DNA from: Methylomonas koyamae
GTDB lineage: Bacteria > Pseudomonadota > Gammaproteobacteria > Methylococcales > Methylomonadaceae
Direction: 5' to 3'
Assembly (NCBI RefSeq): GCF_006483455.1
Contig: NZ_PPPU01000029.1
Span: 1 to 64,000 of the forward strand
DNA length: 64,000 nt
The translations under genes and the position numbers were made by a program. The notes under the pieces were generated by a model. That model was not told the origin of the DNA. It was given only the letters and a program-made list of their open reading frames with translations, and made no database searches. Shown here piece by piece: positions 31,450 to 45,000 of the stretch; position 1 is the stretch's first letter, and every line of letters starts with the position of its first letter.

Positions 31450-31463
31450 ACCGACCCACCTAA

Positions 31464-33466
<2,003 letters not shown>

Positions 33467-40142: not shown

Positions 40143-41357
40143 TTAAGTGCGGTATTCGGCGTTGATTTTGACGTAATCGTAGGAAAAATCGCAGGTCAAC
40201 ACCTGTTCGCTGGCCGAGCCGCGGCCCAAACGCACCGTGACGTCGATCTCCTGCTGGCTCATGACCCGCTGGCCGTCCTGTTCGGTGTAAGACGGCGCGC
40301 GGCCGCCGTTTTCGACGATGCAGACCGTACCCAGGTAAATCTCGATTTTCTCCAGCTCCATATTTTCGACCCCGGCCCGGCCCACGGCAGCCAATATCCG
40401 GCCCCAGTTCGGGTCGCTGGCGAAGAACGCGGTTTTGACCAGCGGCGAATGGGCAATCGTTTTTGCCACTTGCAGCGCTTCGCCGCTGTCGCGGGCTTGC
40501 TCGACGATGATGCGCATCAGCTTGGTGGCGCCTTCGCCGTCGCGAATGATCAATTCCGCCAGCCGTTTGCAGACCGAGGCCAAGGCTGCGCTGAACGCCG
40601 CCAGATGCTCGCTGCCGGGCAAAATCTCCGGCGCGCCGCTGCAGCCGCTGGCCAATACCACGCAGGCGTCGTTGGTCGAAGTATCGCCGTCGACGGTGAT
40701 CCGGTTAAACGATTGCTCGACCGCCGCATTCAGGCACTCTTGCAACAGACCCTGCTCGATTTTGGCGTCGGTGGCGATAAAGCCCAGCATCGTCGCCATA
40801 TTGGGCTGGATCATGCCGGCGCCTTTGGAAATGCCGGTAATCGCGACCGGATGGCCGCCGATGTCGAGCTTCAACGAGGCGCCTTTCGGAAAGGTGTCGG
40901 TGGTCATGATTGCCCGCGCCGCCCGGTCCCAATGCGATTCGGCCAAATTGGCGACCGCGGCCGGCAGCGCCGCCGCCAGTTTTTCCACCGGCAGCGGTTC
41001 GCCGATCACGCCGGTCGAAAACGGCAGCACTTGCTGCGCCAGCGCATCCACTTCTCCAGCCAGTCCGGCGCAGCAGGCAAAGGCATCCTGCAAGCCTTGT
41101 TTGCCGGTGCCGGCATTGGCGTTGCCGGAATTGACCAGCAGCCAGCGCGGATTCATCGGCAAATGCGCCTTGGCGACCTGTACCGGCGCCGCGCAAAAGG
41201 CGTTTTGGGTGAATACCGCCGCGCAACTGCCGCCCTCGGCCATTGCGATGACCAAGATGTCGTCGCGCACGGTTTGTTTGATGCCGGCGTTACTGGAGCC
41301 GAGTTTGATGCCTTTTACGGCATACATTTCAGGAAATGAGGTGTCTCCGACTGCCAT
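40143..41357 (-). CDS. argJ: Bifunctional ornithine acetyltransferase / N-acetylglutamate synthase
   Basis: Recycles the acetyl group between N-acetylornithine and glutamate in arginine synthesis. The precursor self-cleaves before the nucleophilic Thr in KGAGMIQPNMATMLGFIATD near residue 190, giving alpha and beta chains. N-terminal VFTQNAFCAAPVQVAK and LVNSGNANAGTGKQG, and C-terminal DPNWGRILAAVGRAG, also match. The 404 residues are standard. It is followed after eight bases by the Nudix-ThiE gene. The upstream side is the repeat island, so its usual neighbour (secA in many relatives) has been displaced or is absent. Confidence 0.97.
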   Translation of the reverse strand: MAVGDTSFPEMYAVKGIKLGSSNAGIKQTVRDDILVIAMAEGGSCAAVFTQNAFCAAPVQVAKAHLPMNPRWLLVNSGNANAGTGKQGLQDAFACCAGLAGEVDALAQQVLPFSTGVIGEPLPVEKLAAALPAAVANLAESHWDRAARAIMTTDTFPKGASLKLDIGGHPVAITGISKGAGMIQPNMATMLGFIATDAKIEQGLLQECLNAAVEQSFNRITVDGDTSTNDACVVLASGCSGAPEILPGSEHLAAFSAALASVCKRLAELIIRDGEGATKLMRIIVEQARDSGEALQVAKTIAHSPLVKTAFFASDPNWGRILAAVGRAGVENMELEKIEIYLGTVCIVENGGRAPSYTEQDGQRVMSQQEIDVTVRLGRGSASEQVLTCDFSYDYVKINAEYRT

Positions 41358-41393
41358 TTTTTACCTTGTTAGACTGATTAACTAATTTTGTTG

Positions 41394-41665
41394 TGTCGCT
41401 ATCGCGACGAATATTTTAATGTCGGTTCGCGGACCGACAACCGCGATACTTTCTTTTGCGTCGCCAAAAGAAAGTATCCAAAGAAAAGGCGACCCGGACG
41501 CCGCTTATTCCCTGTGCTTCTCGCTTTTGGCGAGGGTTTTCGGAAGGGCTATCCTTAGCCCTCCGAAAACGAGCGGCATCCATGCCGCTCCCCTATCGGG
41601 CTTATCTCGCCAAAAGCTGCGATGCTCGGCGCGGCATACGGGAACAAAACCATCCCGGAATTTAG
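41394..41665 (+). repeat. Multi-hairpin repeat, copy A
   Basis: About 270 bases made almost wholly of stems: GTCGCTATCGCGAC; TGTCGG/CCGACA; ATACTTTCTTTTG at 41446-41458 with CAAAAGAAAGTAT at 41465-41477; an outer stem GCTTTTGGCGAG at 41523-41534 with CTCGCCAAAAGC at 41606-41617. The outer stem encloses GTTTTCGGAAGGGCT at 41536-41550 with AGCCCTCCGAAAAC at 41557-41570, and GAGCGGCAT with ATGCCGCTC at 41571-41590. Copy B has the same architecture with different stem sequences. Open frames that cross it are not genes. Confidence 0.88.
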
Positions 41666-41704
41666 ATGCGCTTGCTGGAATCAACCTTAACTCGACAATC
41701 AAAC

Positions 41705-41784
41705 GTAGGGTGGGCAATGCTTTTTTGCCCACCATGTTATGTCGACAACTATAAACCCGCGTGGGCACAAACAGCCGTGCCCAC
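41705..41784. repeat. Pair of short palindromes between repeat copies A and B
   Basis: Two perfect hairpins: GGTGGGCAA at 41709-41717 with TTGCCCACC at 41725-41733, and GTGGGCAC at 41761-41768 with GTGCCCAC at 41777-41784. They share the GTGGGCA core and look like a separate REP-type family. Confidence 0.7.
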
Positions 41785-41799
41785 CGGGCTTTAAATTTG

Positions 41800-42068
41800 T
41801 GTCGCTACCGCGACGAATATTTTAATGTCGGTTCGCGGACCGACAACCGCGATACTTTTCTTTGCATCGCCAAAGAAAAGTATCCAAAAGAAAGGCGACC
41901 CGGACGCCGCTTATTCCCTGCGCTCCTCGCTTTCGACGGGGATCGACAGAAGGGGCTCCTGCCCCTCTGTCGATGTGCGGCATCCCTGCCGCACCCCTGC
42001 GGGCTGTTCCCGCCGAAAGCTCCGGTGCTCGGCGCGGCATACGGGACAAAACCATCCCGTAATTTGGC
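41800..42068 (+). repeat. Multi-hairpin repeat, copy B
   Basis: Same order of stems as copy A. The first about 130 bases are nearly identical, including ATACTTTTCTTTG at 41852-41864 with CAAAGAAAAGTAT at 41871-41883. The distal part keeps the fold with other bases: GCTTTCGACGGG at 41929-41940 with CCCGCCGAAAGC at 42009-42020, ATCGACAGAAGGGGC at 41942-41956 with GCCCCTCTGTCGAT at 41961-41974, and GTGCGGCA with TGCCGCAC at 41975-41994. The bulged A in the second stem is kept in both copies. Confidence 0.88.
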
Positions 42069-42104
42069 AAGTAATTTACACACCACAGCCTTTTGTTCAA
42101 CCCT

Positions 42105-42202
42105 CGTAGGGTGCATTGGCGATAGCCGTAATGCACCGAACAATCGAAGGACAACATGCGGCGCAATACGGCTCCGCCTATTGACGCCCTACGGATTGCA
42201 CC
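42105..42202. repeat. GTAGGG-type palindromic repeat
   Basis: Starts CGTAGGGTGCATT and ends GCCCTACGGATTGCACC. The two halves are head-to-head GTAGGGtgca / GTAGGGcgtc units with an inner GGTGCATT/AATGCACC dyad. Repeats of this wording are frequent in many gammaproteobacterial genomes. Confidence 0.65.
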
Positions 42203-42319
42203 TTGCCGCTTTAGAAAATTTTATTATTTGCCTATTTACACCGTAGCCTCGATGTCGTGAAACGGAATCGAGCGATATAGTGTTTCGCTTTTTCAAGATC
42301 CCACTACGTTTTATCGCGG

Positions 42320-43312
42320 TTACTTGCTTATTTTTGTGTAATGTTTGTCGAATTCTTTCTGAATGTTAGGGTTATAAAAAGTCTTTTTCCCGCCATTTGG
42401 GTTTTTGGGGTTTAGAAGCCTTTCATAGGCAAACTTACTATCTTGTTCTAACTTTTTTCTTATCTTGTGATAACTAGCATTCATTTTGAAGTCAGTATAT
42501 CGCTTCGATAATCGAGTGCTTAGGATATCGTAATCCCAAGGATACTTATCGGTGAAGTCTTCTTCCGATAAAAACACAGCTGTGGCACTTGGGTCATTAG
42601 TAATTTGAACTGGCAAGCCTGATGTGCTTTTTACTTTTTGAAATTTAACATCAATTCTTAGTGTCAAATTGTAATCACCAATACTTTTGCCGTCATAAGA
42701 TTCCTCTGTCTTCTTTATGTATTCCAAAACCTTTTTTTCGCTGGCATTAAGTAAAACACCAGGAACTTCGTTGAAATTTCTAAAAAAAGAGAGCGGCATC
42801 AAGTAAAAATTATATCCAGATAAAACATCTCCAAACCAAGAAGAAACCAAATGGAGGTAGTTTTGAAGAGATGCGCTACCTAATTCTTGGATTTTCAAAG
42901 ACAACAACATGTCTTCGTTGACAAAGTGTATGGAGTTATCCCTGATTTCTGTAAGTGCAGTTAGATTATCGTTTACCGCTTTATCTATCTTTACCCCGTA
43001 TTCTTCGGTGACAATTCGGTACGCTTCAAACAGATTAATAGATAAGGGGTTTCCTGAGCGATTTGTTTTGGGGCGTTTTTTAGATGACTTCTTTCCGGTT
43101 TTAAGGATTTTATGTTCCATTGCATAAAGCGAAGCCAATTTGTTGCTAGCTAAGTTAAGAACTTTCGCTTTTAGAAGTAGCTCCCAAGCGTTAATACAAA
43201 GAACAGAAAAAGTCTCCTCTCGGTATTTAAAGTCTGGCTTATTGTATATTTCAATTGCTGACAATATTGCCGCGATTGATTTTTCTAACATTAACCGAGA
43301 TCGTGATTTCAT
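42320..43312 (-). CDS. DUF3644 protein with HEPN-type RX4H motif
   Basis: A 330-residue soluble protein, strikingly AT-rich compared with its neighbours. The N-terminus (MLEKSIAAILSAIEIYNKPDFKYREETFSVLCINAWELLLKAKVL) matches the DUF3644 family as I know it. Near residue 130 the segment EIRDNSIHFVNED has the spacing R-x4-H of HEPN ribonucleases, with a polar residue after the Arg. The C-terminal part (PNGGKKTFYNPNIQKEFDKHYTKI) has the look of a DNA- or RNA-binding tail but no known motif. No MNT-type antitoxin gene is adjacent. It is alone between structured repeats, consistent with horizontal transfer. A defence or toxin role is inference. Confidence 0.8.
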   Translation of the reverse strand: MKSRSRLMLEKSIAAILSAIEIYNKPDFKYREETFSVLCINAWELLLKAKVLNLASNKLASLYAMEHKILKTGKKSSKKRPKTNRSGNPLSINLFEAYRIVTEEYGVKIDKAVNDNLTALTEIRDNSIHFVNEDMLLSLKIQELGSASLQNYLHLVSSWFGDVLSGYNFYLMPLSFFRNFNEVPGVLLNASEKKVLEYIKKTEESYDGKSIGDYNLTLRIDVKFQKVKSTSGLPVQITNDPSATAVFLSEEDFTDKYPWDYDILSTRLSKRYTDFKMNASYHKIRKKLEQDSKFAYERLLNPKNPNGGKKTFYNPNIQKEFDKHYTKISK

Positions 43313-43404
43313 GGAATCAGTTTATAGAATTTAACAGGTGACTAAACGATTTTTGTATATTATTCCTGATCAGTTAAATAGGTTTTTACTATCACGACAG
43401 TTTT

Positions 43405-43725
43405 CCTCCCGTATGCCGCGCCGAGCACCGGAGCTTTCGGCGGGAATAGCCCGTAGGGGTGCGGCAGGGATGCCGCACATCGACAGAGGGGCAGGAAGCC
43501 CCTTCTGTCGATCCCCGTCGAAAGCGAGGAGCGCAGGACAAATCGGCAGGATAGCCGATTTGCATGCATTGCACCCGTAGGGCGAGGCACATGGATGTGC
43601 CGAGTGAGCTAAGCGGCGTCCGGGTGGCGTTTCTTTTGGTGACTTTTCTTTGGCCAAACAAAGAAAAGTTACTCGGCTGTCGGGCCGAGACCCGACATCA
43701 AATCAAGCCGTCGCGATAGCGACAC
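43405..43725 (-). repeat. Multi-hairpin repeat, copy C (inverted)
   Basis: In reverse complement it runs from GTCGCTATCGCGAC (43712-43725 side) through TGTCGGGTCTCGGCCCGACA and the CTTTTCTTTG/CAAAGAAAAG stem to the same distal stem group as copy B (ATCGACAGAAGGGGC, GTGCGGCA, GCTTTCGACGGG). Between the proximal and distal halves it has about 75 extra bases with CGGCACA/TGTGCC and AAATCGGC/GCCGATTT hairpins and a GTAGGGCGAGG segment, which looks like a nested repeat insertion. Confidence 0.85.
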
Positions 43726-43735
43726 AACCAAAAAC

Positions 43736-43960
43736 TCAACCCACTTCCAAAACAATCACATACTCCCCATCACCCGCACGAGTCTCCAACACCTGATGCC
43801 CATTAATCCGACACCAGGCCGGAATATCCTGCATCACCCCTGGATCGGTGCATTCCACGGTCAATACGTCGCCGTGCTGTAAAGTCTTGACCTTGTCCTG
43901 GGTGCGGATCACCGGCAACGGGCACAACAGCCGGCGTGCGTTTAACGTGAATTCGCTCAT
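43736..43960 (-). CDS. TusA-like sulfur carrier protein
   Basis: A 74-residue protein of the TusA/SirA fold, which passes persulfide sulfur between proteins. The signature is LCPLPVIRTQDKVKTLQHGD, with the acceptor Cys in RRLLCPLP near residue 13. The start ATG at 43960 overlaps the stop of the PP-loop gene by four bases (ATGA), so an upstream Met at 43969 is less likely. Coupling suggests that it gives sulfur to, or takes it from, the neighbouring enzyme. Confidence 0.88.
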   Translation of the reverse strand: MSEFTLNARRLLCPLPVIRTQDKVKTLQHGDVLTVECTDPGVMQDIPAWCRINGHQVLETRAGDGEYVIVLEVG

Positions 43961-45000
43961 ACGAACCACTCCTCGGGAATTTGCTCGGCTGCCAACGGCG
44001 TTACGAAAATATTACGTTCGGCCCCGGCGCGGTCGCGTATCGTCACTTCGACTTGCTCGGCGTCGCGGCCCTGGCCGTAGCGGGCCAGGATTTGCCCGGC
44101 CAAGGCCAAATCGTCTTCGCCGACTTCGCCGTCGATCAGCACCAACGGTCCGCGGTGGCTGGTGCAATGCATGCTGACGAACTCTTTTTTATAGCCGCTC
44201 ATGAAGCGGGCTTCGCCATCCTCGCGGGCGACGATGATTTTGAAATGCGGGCGGGGGCGAATATGGCGGCCGACCTTCAACAGCATGATGTCGTCCAGAT
44301 CGTAGTCGCGCTTGCCGCGGGCCTGCCACAGGTCGGTCAATTTTAAGGAATAACTTTCGTCGGTTAGGAAGCAGCAGCCGCCGGCCGGTTGGGCGTAGTC
44401 GGCAAAACCGAATTCTTTGGCCAAGCTCATTTGCGGTTTGCGGGAGCGGCCGCTGAAGCCGAACATCTTGTCGCGGCTGATCCAGCCCTCGCGTTCCGGC
44501 AAGGTGGCCGGCAGATTTTGCGCCGACAGCGGCCGCACCAGCAGGTCGTCGGCGCCGGATTCGGCGGCGACGATCGGCATGGTCTGCTTGCGTTGCGACA
44601 TCGGCCGTTGCCCGACCACTTCGCCGGTGATGATGAAATCGAAGCCGTTTTCCTGCATCCACTGCTTGGCCTTGTTGACCATGAAGATCTTGCAGTCCAG
44701 GCACGGGTTCAGATTGGCGCCGTAGCCGTGTTTGGGGTTCAGCAGCACTTGTTTGTATTCTTCGATGATATCGATGATGTGCAGCTTGATGCCGAGTTGT
44801 TCGGCTACCCACAGTGCGTTGTTACGCTTGACCTTGTCGGCATCCTGCTTGCGGATGGCGTGGGTGTGGCCTTCGACGCAAAATCCGGTAAAGAAGTTGA
44901 TGCCTTCGACATGGATGCCCTGGTTCATGATGGTCTGGCAGGCTAGCATGGAATCCAGGCCGCCGGAAATCAGCGCCACGGCTTTTCGTTGTTGACTCAT
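43957..45000 (-). CDS. PP-loop thiouridylase-like protein with C-terminal NFACT-R-like domain
   Basis: A 347-residue cytoplasmic protein related to MnmA/ThiI ATP pyrophosphatases. The PP-loop SGGLDSMLA is at residues 13-21. A CX2C pair, NPCLDCKIFMVNKAKQWM, lies near 100, followed by FIITGEVVGQRPMSQRKQTM. A second Cys pair is in PAGGCCFLTDESYS near 205. The C-terminal 110 residues (DDIMLLKVGRHIRPRPHFKIIVAREDGEA) resemble the NFACT-R (DUF814) RNA-binding domain. It is often annotated as a tRNA thiouridine-modifying enzyme, but it is distinct from canonical MnmA. The coupled TusA-like gene supports sulfur transfer to an RNA. The exact substrate is unknown. Confidence 0.8.
   Translation of the reverse strand: MSQQRKAVALISGGLDSMLACQTIMNQGIHVEGINFFTGFCVEGHTHAIRKQDADKVKRNNALWVAEQLGIKLHIIDIIEEYKQVLLNPKHGYGANLNPCLDCKIFMVNKAKQWMQENGFDFIITGEVVGQRPMSQRKQTMPIVAAESGADDLLVRPLSAQNLPATLPEREGWISRDKMFGFSGRSRKPQMSLAKEFGFADYAQPAGGCCFLTDESYSLKLTDLWQARGKRDYDLDDIMLLKVGRHIRPRPHFKIIVAREDGEARFMSGYKKEFVSMHCTSHRGPLVLIDGEVGEDDLALAGQILARYGQGRDAEQVEVTIRDRAGAERNIFVTPLAAEQIPEEWFV

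Follow-up and report, generated by a model that had tools for sequence, protein, structure and literature searches.

Folded repeats in inverted pairs bound exchangeable cargo genes in Methylomonas

The window analysed here is a 64,000-nt stretch of a Methylomonas koyamae contig (NZ_PPPU01000029.1), in which three copies of a folded repeat lie between argJ and tusA around a gene for a candidate phage-defence protein. Copies of this repeat have a covarying fold and mostly stand as inverted pairs with their 5' ends outward; some relatives have empty argJ-tusA sites, and unrelated cargo lies between orthologous flanks. Most pairs read within the genus have one to few genes between their ends. With slightly better than even confidence, we interpret the repeats as folded ends, acting at the DNA level, of TIRtron-like cassettes that are linked to RAYT and serve as gene-exchange platforms, the enzyme and the mechanism being ones that we infer.

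Repeat copies at the argJ-tusA locus

Copy A (41392..41662, + strand) is folded into at least six stems, with model position 1 at 41392 and its outer end beside argJ. Copy B (41798..42064, +) stands in tandem to A as the left boundary of the cargo, while copy C (43399..43726, −) is inverted and forms the right boundary, its outer end beside tusA. The unit length of the three is roughly 270 nt, and C carries an insertion of ~58 nt (43548-43605). Covariance model matches extend over 41388-41662 for A (300 bits) and 41794-42064 for B (289 bits), and the two copies are 89% identical across their first 158 nt. The cargo is a DUF3644 protein of 330 aa (42320..43312, −; Pfam PF12358, 175 bits), which PADLOC assigns to the phage-defence candidate PDC-S19 (491 bits). 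Pfam and synteny identify the edges of the insertion site as argJ on the left (40143..41357, −; ArgJ, 491 bits) and tusA on the right (43736..43969, −; TusA, 77 bits). The interval given in the initial annotation, 41394..42068, is too narrow, the unit running from 41392 to 43726. Inverted pairing, enclosed cargo and turnover at fixed sites lay outside that annotation.

Stem 3 of copy A (41445..41478, +) reads GATACTTTCTTTTG...CAAAAGAAAGTATC, and the stem-3 region was the query of our exact-pattern scan. The multibranch, cloverleaf-like domain of A (41523..41617, +) has a closing stem, 41523-41534/41606-41617, around three hairpins. In the corresponding domain of B (41929..42020, +) the stems are substituted, and the closing stem 41929-41940/42009-42020 has one mismatch. 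The spacer between A and B (41663..41797, no strand assigned), as read from the sequence, contains a GTAG-tagged palindrome at 41705-41733 and a GTGGGCAC/GTGCCCAC palindrome at 41761-41784, with a terminator-like hairpin at 41709-41733. These two palindromes and a third at 42106-42137 are short, belong to other families and lie between or beside the copies; the first and third start with GTAG. Similar short palindromes flank some repeat copies elsewhere in the genome from which the window comes (hereafter the home genome).

Fold and covariation

All stems quoted for A and B in the initial annotation are present in the sequence, both bulged A's are real, and so is the shifted C-G pair of the ATACTTT stem, the shift consisting of two double substitutions. 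Pairing is kept between the copies as claimed, except that B's GCTTTCGACGGG/CCCGCCGAAAGC has one A-C mismatch. Against 200 dinucleotide shuffles, copy A folds with z = −8.1 as DNA and, as RNA, with z = −8.3 on the + strand and −9.5 on the − strand.

Covariation was measured on an alignment of 22 of the at least 41 home-genome copies; of the other 19, three were nearly whole and the rest were fragments, contained inserts or lay at contig ends. RNAalifold found 73 pairs in the 22 copies, giving a repeat model of 264 nt, 73 pairs and 10 helices, in which three hairpins at the outer end are followed by a multibranched domain whose closing stems enclose three hairpins. Across the 73 pairs, 97.9% of cells are paired, and two-sided changes affect 34 pairs (179 cells), compared with six cells changed on one side only. 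The covariation score of these copies was 0.313 against a shuffled mean of 0.100, was reached by none of 500 shuffles and was lost when the partner was shifted by 1-3 columns. Of the five measures, only that of further pair types was less clear (54 vs 48.9, reached by 12 of 500 shuffles). A covariance model, whose construction had been suggested earlier, was searched against the home genome and relatives and found copies in both. Outside the genus (63 matches at 37 loci), two-sided changes occur in 68 of the 73 pairs (885 cells; 0 of 500 shuffles), in an alignment that was fitted to the model and hence leans towards it. The proposed selection on a folded nucleic acid is supported by very strong covariation.

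Mutation rather than selection could also yield such a pattern, if template switching between arms (quasipalindrome correction) copied one arm onto the other; one-step copying predicts the observed 179 double vs 6 one-sided changes. However, the multibranch closing stems, with arms ~70-130 nt apart, covary too (helices 5-7), and the model has matches in at least 62 of 222 sampled class genera. Both observations argue for function, and we consider arm copying improbable as the source of the covariation.

DNA, RNA or protein

The claim that selection does not act on protein withstood inspection of the 22 copies, which have no conserved reading frame: at most seven are open in any single frame, and home-genome copy lengths of 269-278 vary modulo 3. 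We therefore rejected a protein-coding repeat. Because the copies contain chance open frames, they may often be annotated as small hypothetical proteins and overlooked.

The home-genome alignment contains 1525 Watson-Crick, 47 G-T and 19 A-C cells. Among cells changed from the commonest pair, 180 are Watson-Crick, 5 are G-T and 19 are A-C. RNAs under selection usually retain many G-U pairs. That fewer changed cells are G-T than A-C speaks for selection on DNA or on both strands over RNA, and makes RNA less likely; the set from outside the genus shows a weak contrast in the opposite direction (92 changed G-T vs 69 A-C).

A structured RNA would mean that the repeats are transcribed and act as bidirectional terminators or mRNA-stabilising ends, with the cargo incidental. 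This would suit the good folding of both strands, the 12 terminator-like hairpins in 41350-43740 (3.4 in shuffles) and the position of several outside-genus pairs between convergent genes (L306, L307, L309 and L316). It is at odds with the full Watson-Crick replacement by which home-genome copies change, and with Rfam 15, where the repeat has no match at the gathering score and thus belongs to no known RNA family; its best sub-threshold match is RsmW, at 25.5 bits of the 52 needed. We therefore regard an RNA function as quite improbable. The only Rfam match in the window at the gathering score is an unrelated TPP riboswitch (31460-31565, +; 71 bits).

Inverted pairing of the repeats

The home genome contains at least 41 repeat copies or fragments, with 40 of 51 candidates scored in the main search. 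Neighbouring copies within 5 kb of each other are oriented +/− in 13 cases, −/− in three, +/+ in two and −/+ in one (n = 19), a +/− bias with p = 8e-5 against 25%. In this orientation the 5' ends point outward, like those of terminal inverted repeats. At loci outside Methylomonas, neighbours within 5 kb among the matches listed were 24 +/−, two −/+ and one +/+ (n = 27; p = 5e-12), as counted by hand at stem-3-pattern loci, a few of which share one genome. All but one of these 24 +/− pairs, again among the matches listed, are less than 530 nt apart.

An ORF of at least 100 aa is enclosed by 9 of the 13 home-genome pairs and by 49 of all 57 mapped pairs, the other eight having no ORF of 100 aa. 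These 57 +/− pairs are not an unbiased count, since regions were picked for known pairs; nearly all of the second set of 20 regions were chosen for pairs already seen. In the inner half, partner repeats scored 0.82 (n = 28 of the 57 pairs) and same-genome non-partners 0.74 (n = 38), but the values scatter and we draw little from this likeness.

Other arrangements were also seen. In five home-genome regions (L036, L037, L039, L043 and L048), repeat copies are interrupted by ~70 nt near model position 63, so that a break recurs where stem 3 begins. Three same-direction copies ~2 kb apart form an array-like arrangement at L318:2274-6606, where a ribbon-helix-helix/PIN pair and other small ORFs lie between the copies.

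Cargo turnover at argJ-tusA and other fixed sites

We read 30 argJ loci, that of the home genome included, from the 37 genus genomes with argJ. Half of them (15/30) are empty, with argJ directly beside tusA, and the other 15 begin with a repeat; the empty sites that the initial annotation had proposed to look for in related strains thus exist. Fourteen of the 15 occupied sites were read through, the one in G011 ending at a contig edge, and each of the 14 has cargo framed by inward-facing copies. The empty argJ-tusA spacer is 20-117 nt long, and what remains of it to the left and right of the insertion totals 23-58 nt at 12 of the 14 occupied sites. No obvious target duplication was seen at these junctions when diverged spacers were compared by eye.

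The cargo differs strongly among genomes, with a cargo homologue common to only 3 of the 91 pairs among the 14 genomes. In G007, a same-species genome used for comparison with the home genome, the flank and repeat pieces that align at argJ match at 95-99%, with unrelated cargo between them: a PDC-S14 gene takes the place of DUF3644 while flanks and repeats are kept. A stretch that extends to slightly beyond the stop codon of the window cargo (42211..42328, no strand assigned) is 80% identical to the repeat-to-cargo-stop stretch of G007.

Other fixed sites show similar turnover. Sites 7 and 10 each have cargo shared by 1 of 10 genome pairs, sites 12 and 34 each by 0 of 1, and site 35 by 1 of 3. 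Cargo common to 10 of 15 pairs was found at site 27, which had been chosen for its RAYT; this sharing is presumably due to the RAYT, because the second genes are of unequal length and begin differently. Sites 5, 8 and 11 have repeat pairs without cargo in both genomes. The total of 37 sites is too high, since the grouping left argJ cassettes unmerged.

These data also bear on an integron-like mode of exchange, in which a putative recombinase would recognise the folded strand and the unit would be one gene plus one repeat. In 13 of 14 genomes the argJ cargo points the same way as the operon, as such a unit would predict, and multi-gene arrays occur, namely the direct array of L318 and the L119 cassette, which holds an EcoRV-type restriction-modification system and another gene. 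Neighbouring copies, however, are mostly inverted rather than direct, and no recombinase candidate was noticed among the cassette genes, integrases not having been specifically searched for. We regard this mode as highly improbable.

Exchange breakpoints

Across genomes, the tusA-side repeats at argJ (11 of 14 full length) resemble one another through the inner half at 0.89-0.95, compared with 0.66-0.75 for repeats at other loci. The contrast is smaller for the argJ-side repeats, whose inner bins reach 0.79-0.85 vs 0.73-0.77. Repeats at sites 7 and 10 are locus-specific into the inner half, like the tusA-side repeats at argJ.

Breakpoints between the home genome and G007 were read in the 10 of 20 home-genome regions for which the G007 counterpart was fetched. 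The tusA-side repeat at argJ and the repeat at C20/L211 are retained in full. At site 12 one repeat is whole and the other is kept only at positions 1-63, while at site 7 one repeat is kept to ~215 and the other is replaced from its outer end. One break at L046/L213 falls outside the repeat, and the left repeat at argJ is a mosaic. Breakpoints therefore lie mostly in or at the edges of repeats, and we do not claim a single fixed crossover point. Exchange solely by crossover inside the repeats is not general, as the tusA-side inner halves are locus-specific and the inner part differs at site 12.

Breakpoints as variable as these are what plain homologous recombination would give, and they therefore count against a RAYT-based model. 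In such a scheme the repeats would be old, dispersed, REP-like structured elements (terminators or nucleoid sites) between which cargo is replaced by a RecA-type process with no dedicated enzyme. The argJ mosaic, the partial repeat at site 12 and the presence of DUF3644 elsewhere without repeats (see below) all fit it. Homologous recombination alone nevertheless leaves unexplained the inverted-pair bias (13/19 and 24/27), the insertion into the short argJ-tusA spacer, and the locus-specific inner halves of the tusA-side repeats at argJ and of those at sites 7 and 10, where the cargo differs. We judge it unlikely as a full account.

Cargo genes

We scanned 76 cargo proteins, comprising 74 ORFs of at least 100 aa and two from L119, together with 76 control proteins that were hand-picked from 349 flanking ORFs and look like housekeeping genes. 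At 1e-5, Pfam found 27 families in the cargo and 110 in the controls. The eight Y1_Tnp members in the cargo are not a frequency estimate, as the set includes regions chosen for RAYT.

Six of the ten cargo proteins submitted singly to PADLOC gave a match. Besides the DUF3644 protein of the window (PDC-S19), these were two from G007, a DUF4357 protein (PDC-S14) and a KAP NTPase (PDC-S20), an OLD-like ATPase nearest to HEC-04, and an EcoRV-type restriction enzyme and methylase from G024. A NACHT protein had no PADLOC match; it matched SNaCT11 and had a sub-threshold HEPN. The controls matched 12 PADLOC families, mostly weakly, with a best hit of 6e-32 to mad3. Much of the cargo is without a family or known role, so that the term "defence cassette" would overstate its content. 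In class genomes chosen for pairs, some pairs hold small genes.

Two cargo families lie inside repeat pairs at unrelated sites. The NACHT gene is within inverted repeats in both the home genome and G012, with 79% protein identity, and tblastx found no similarity between the flanks of the two loci (~1.1 kb left, 0.9 kb right). A membrane-like family of 188 and 175 aa is likewise 79% identical between different sites in the home genome and G001. The idea that cargo always travels with the repeats is contradicted by DUF3644. In a 201-genome sample, homologues 77-88% identical were found in four other genera (L446, L447, L448 and L449) and in no other genome of the home genus, and no repeat lies within 1.5 kb of the gene in these four genera. 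Transfer by another route is therefore likely for this gene.

RAYT transposases

RAYT transposases recur as cargo (NF047646 REP_Tyr_transpos, 200 bits). We fetched 20 RAYT regions, nine of them candidates (six with a repeat known nearby and three by RAYT match alone) and eleven controls. Each of the ten C6-type RAYT genes in these regions is flanked left and right by repeat copies, although in one case the two copies point the same way and some of the copies are incomplete. Five of the ten are in four regions without repeats known beforehand (L194, L195, L196 and L202). Among the eleven control regions, eight have no copy, two have one copy and one (L202) has a pair. The C6-type RAYT of the home genome keeps DHLH and YIHYNP, which we take to be the HUH and tyrosine motifs (compare PMC6006769). 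RAYTs of a second type are found in G007, in one cassette with the KAP gene, and in G012, immediately downstream of the NACHT gene; the G012 match falls slightly short of the Pfam cut-off. Among the 53 ORFs of cargo that had not been selected for RAYT, two are clear RAYTs and one is a distant relative found by blastp only.

C6-type RAYTs (at least 60% identity) occur in 18 of 37 genus genomes, with a further 99-residue fragment in G014. At least five repeat matches were found in all 18 genomes with a C6-type match and in 13 of the 19 without, a weak link (Fisher p = 0.02, or 0.09 counting the G014 fragment). The genomes G003, G010, G013 and G019 are rich in repeats and lack a C6-type RAYT but have other RAYTs. 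Strict dependence on the C6-type is thus unsupported, several repeat-rich genomes being without it, and no RAYT turned up among the loci fetched from other genera. A RAYT is, on sequence grounds, the best candidate for the mover of the cassettes.

Distribution

The covariance model has matches in at least 44 of 101 family genomes, at least 70 of 274 class genomes (in at least 62 of 222 genera) and at least 35 of 249 phylum-sample genomes, the last in part the same genomes as in the class sample. These are lower bounds, as the model was scored on 7-19 candidates per genome in all three samples. Ten of the 35 phylum-sample matches are weak and belong to one family outside the class. Among the matches listed, hosts of the stem-3 pattern include Aeromonas, Dyella, Lysobacter, Burkholderia, Acidovorax, Polaromonas, Silvimonas, Actinobacillus and Aggregatibacter; no repeat match was found in E. 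coli genomes.

We also considered a phage or plasmid element and rejected it: there was no match in 50,697 phage records and no exact stem-3 pattern in viral contigs, and plasmid records gave only five short matches, all to the stem-3 region. A possible distant relative lies in the dapF-DUF484 gap of Pasteurella multocida (L156:3998-4430), whose two ends carry the stem-3 hairpin and an A/T-rich hairpin resembling it, respectively, and which has an inverted inner motif.

Proposed mechanism and significance

The initial annotation had left a mobile element, an RNA and a recombination platform as options. A combination of mobile element and platform fits best, given the inverted pairs around exchangeable cargo, the empty sites and the same cargo found elsewhere, while RNA is less likely. 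In the cassette model that we favour, the fold would act in single-stranded DNA or as an extruded cruciform and would be recognised by a HUH tyrosine transposase of the RAYT family, which some cassettes would carry as cargo and which could act in trans for others. The transposase would spread repeat pairs, whether or not they enclose cargo, and no target duplication would be visible afterwards. An occupied site would then become a platform, where cargo may be replaced by recombination that mostly breaks within the repeats or at their margins; the site would cycle through accessory genes, including anti-phage candidates. Counting against the cassette model are the weak C6 link, the repeat-free control regions and the lack of RAYT in loci fetched outside the genus, as well as DUF3644 without repeats, pairs without ORFs and the short pairs outside the genus.

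More tentatively, and at somewhat less than even probability, the repeats may mark a cassette system that is widespread in Gammaproteobacteria (beta included) and differs from integrons and IS elements, with ssDNA-fold ends, long-lived swappable platforms and a RAYT-type HUH mover. Such a system would have the multibranched fold at both cassette ends, often carry anti-phage cargo and sometimes RAYT itself. If so, environmental Proteobacteria would have a chromosomal route to gain and exchange accessory and defence genes without phage, plasmid or integron, paired folded repeats would offer a sequence-based handle for finding new defence genes, and the RAYT family would gain a possible role beyond copying small palindromes.

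Comparison with known systems

No description of this repeat family, its fold or its cargo exchange was found in the literature searched, which excluded subscription papers and preprints. Integron cassettes have folded single-strand recombination sites (attC) and small cargo, form arrays and include defence genes. The repeats resemble them in all these respects, but they form inverted pairs instead of one site per cassette, and their sites are dispersed rather than gathered on one platform. Integron cassettes have directly oriented sites, one per gene; neighbouring copies of the repeat are mostly inverted (13 of 19 in the home genome, 24 of 27 in other genera), with one direct array, in L318.

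Mobile insertion cassettes (MICs) are passenger genes bounded by inverted repeats, most copies lacking a transposase, and their ends match a known IS. The cassettes described here likewise have passenger genes between inverted repeats and mostly no transposase. They differ from MICs in being folded along most of the repeat length, and no obvious target duplication was visible by eye at the argJ-tusA junctions.

The REP/REPIN/REPtron system, reportedly a subject of Bertels and Rainey in 2011, is also extragenic folded DNA with inverted doublets and a RAYT link, according to Quentin et al. 2018 (PMC6006769). REPs are palindromes of 20-40 bp, most of them tagged GTAG or CGTC (PMC3733652). The repeats here are far longer, multibranched and often bound genes, and the model of 264 nt and 73 pairs is no 20-40 bp hairpin with a GTAG or CGTC tag.

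The nearest published description is the TIRtron (PMC3733652; discussed in PMC6006769). According to Di Nocera et al. 2013 (PMC3733652), the TIRtron or TIRYT likewise has a RAYT-family transposase between long inverted repeats, which are also a dispersed family and often dimers; a TIR motif GGGGWSAS is reported for many TIRtrons, and in the sections consulted the transposase is the sole cargo mentioned. The ten C6-type RAYT genes described above show this TIRtron layout, each standing between repeat copies. By eye and with no formal scan, the nearest match to this motif at our inner ends is GGGGAGAA, one base off. The window cassette carries DUF3644 only and no transposase, which makes it TIRtron-like and not a TIRtron. 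Further differences from TIRtrons are that the repeat is ~270 nt long with at least six stems, covaries strongly and has matches across many families of the class, and that the repeats mostly bound non-transposase genes, with cargo turnover at fixed sites. We file the repeat family as a variant of RAYT-linked terminal-repeat elements.
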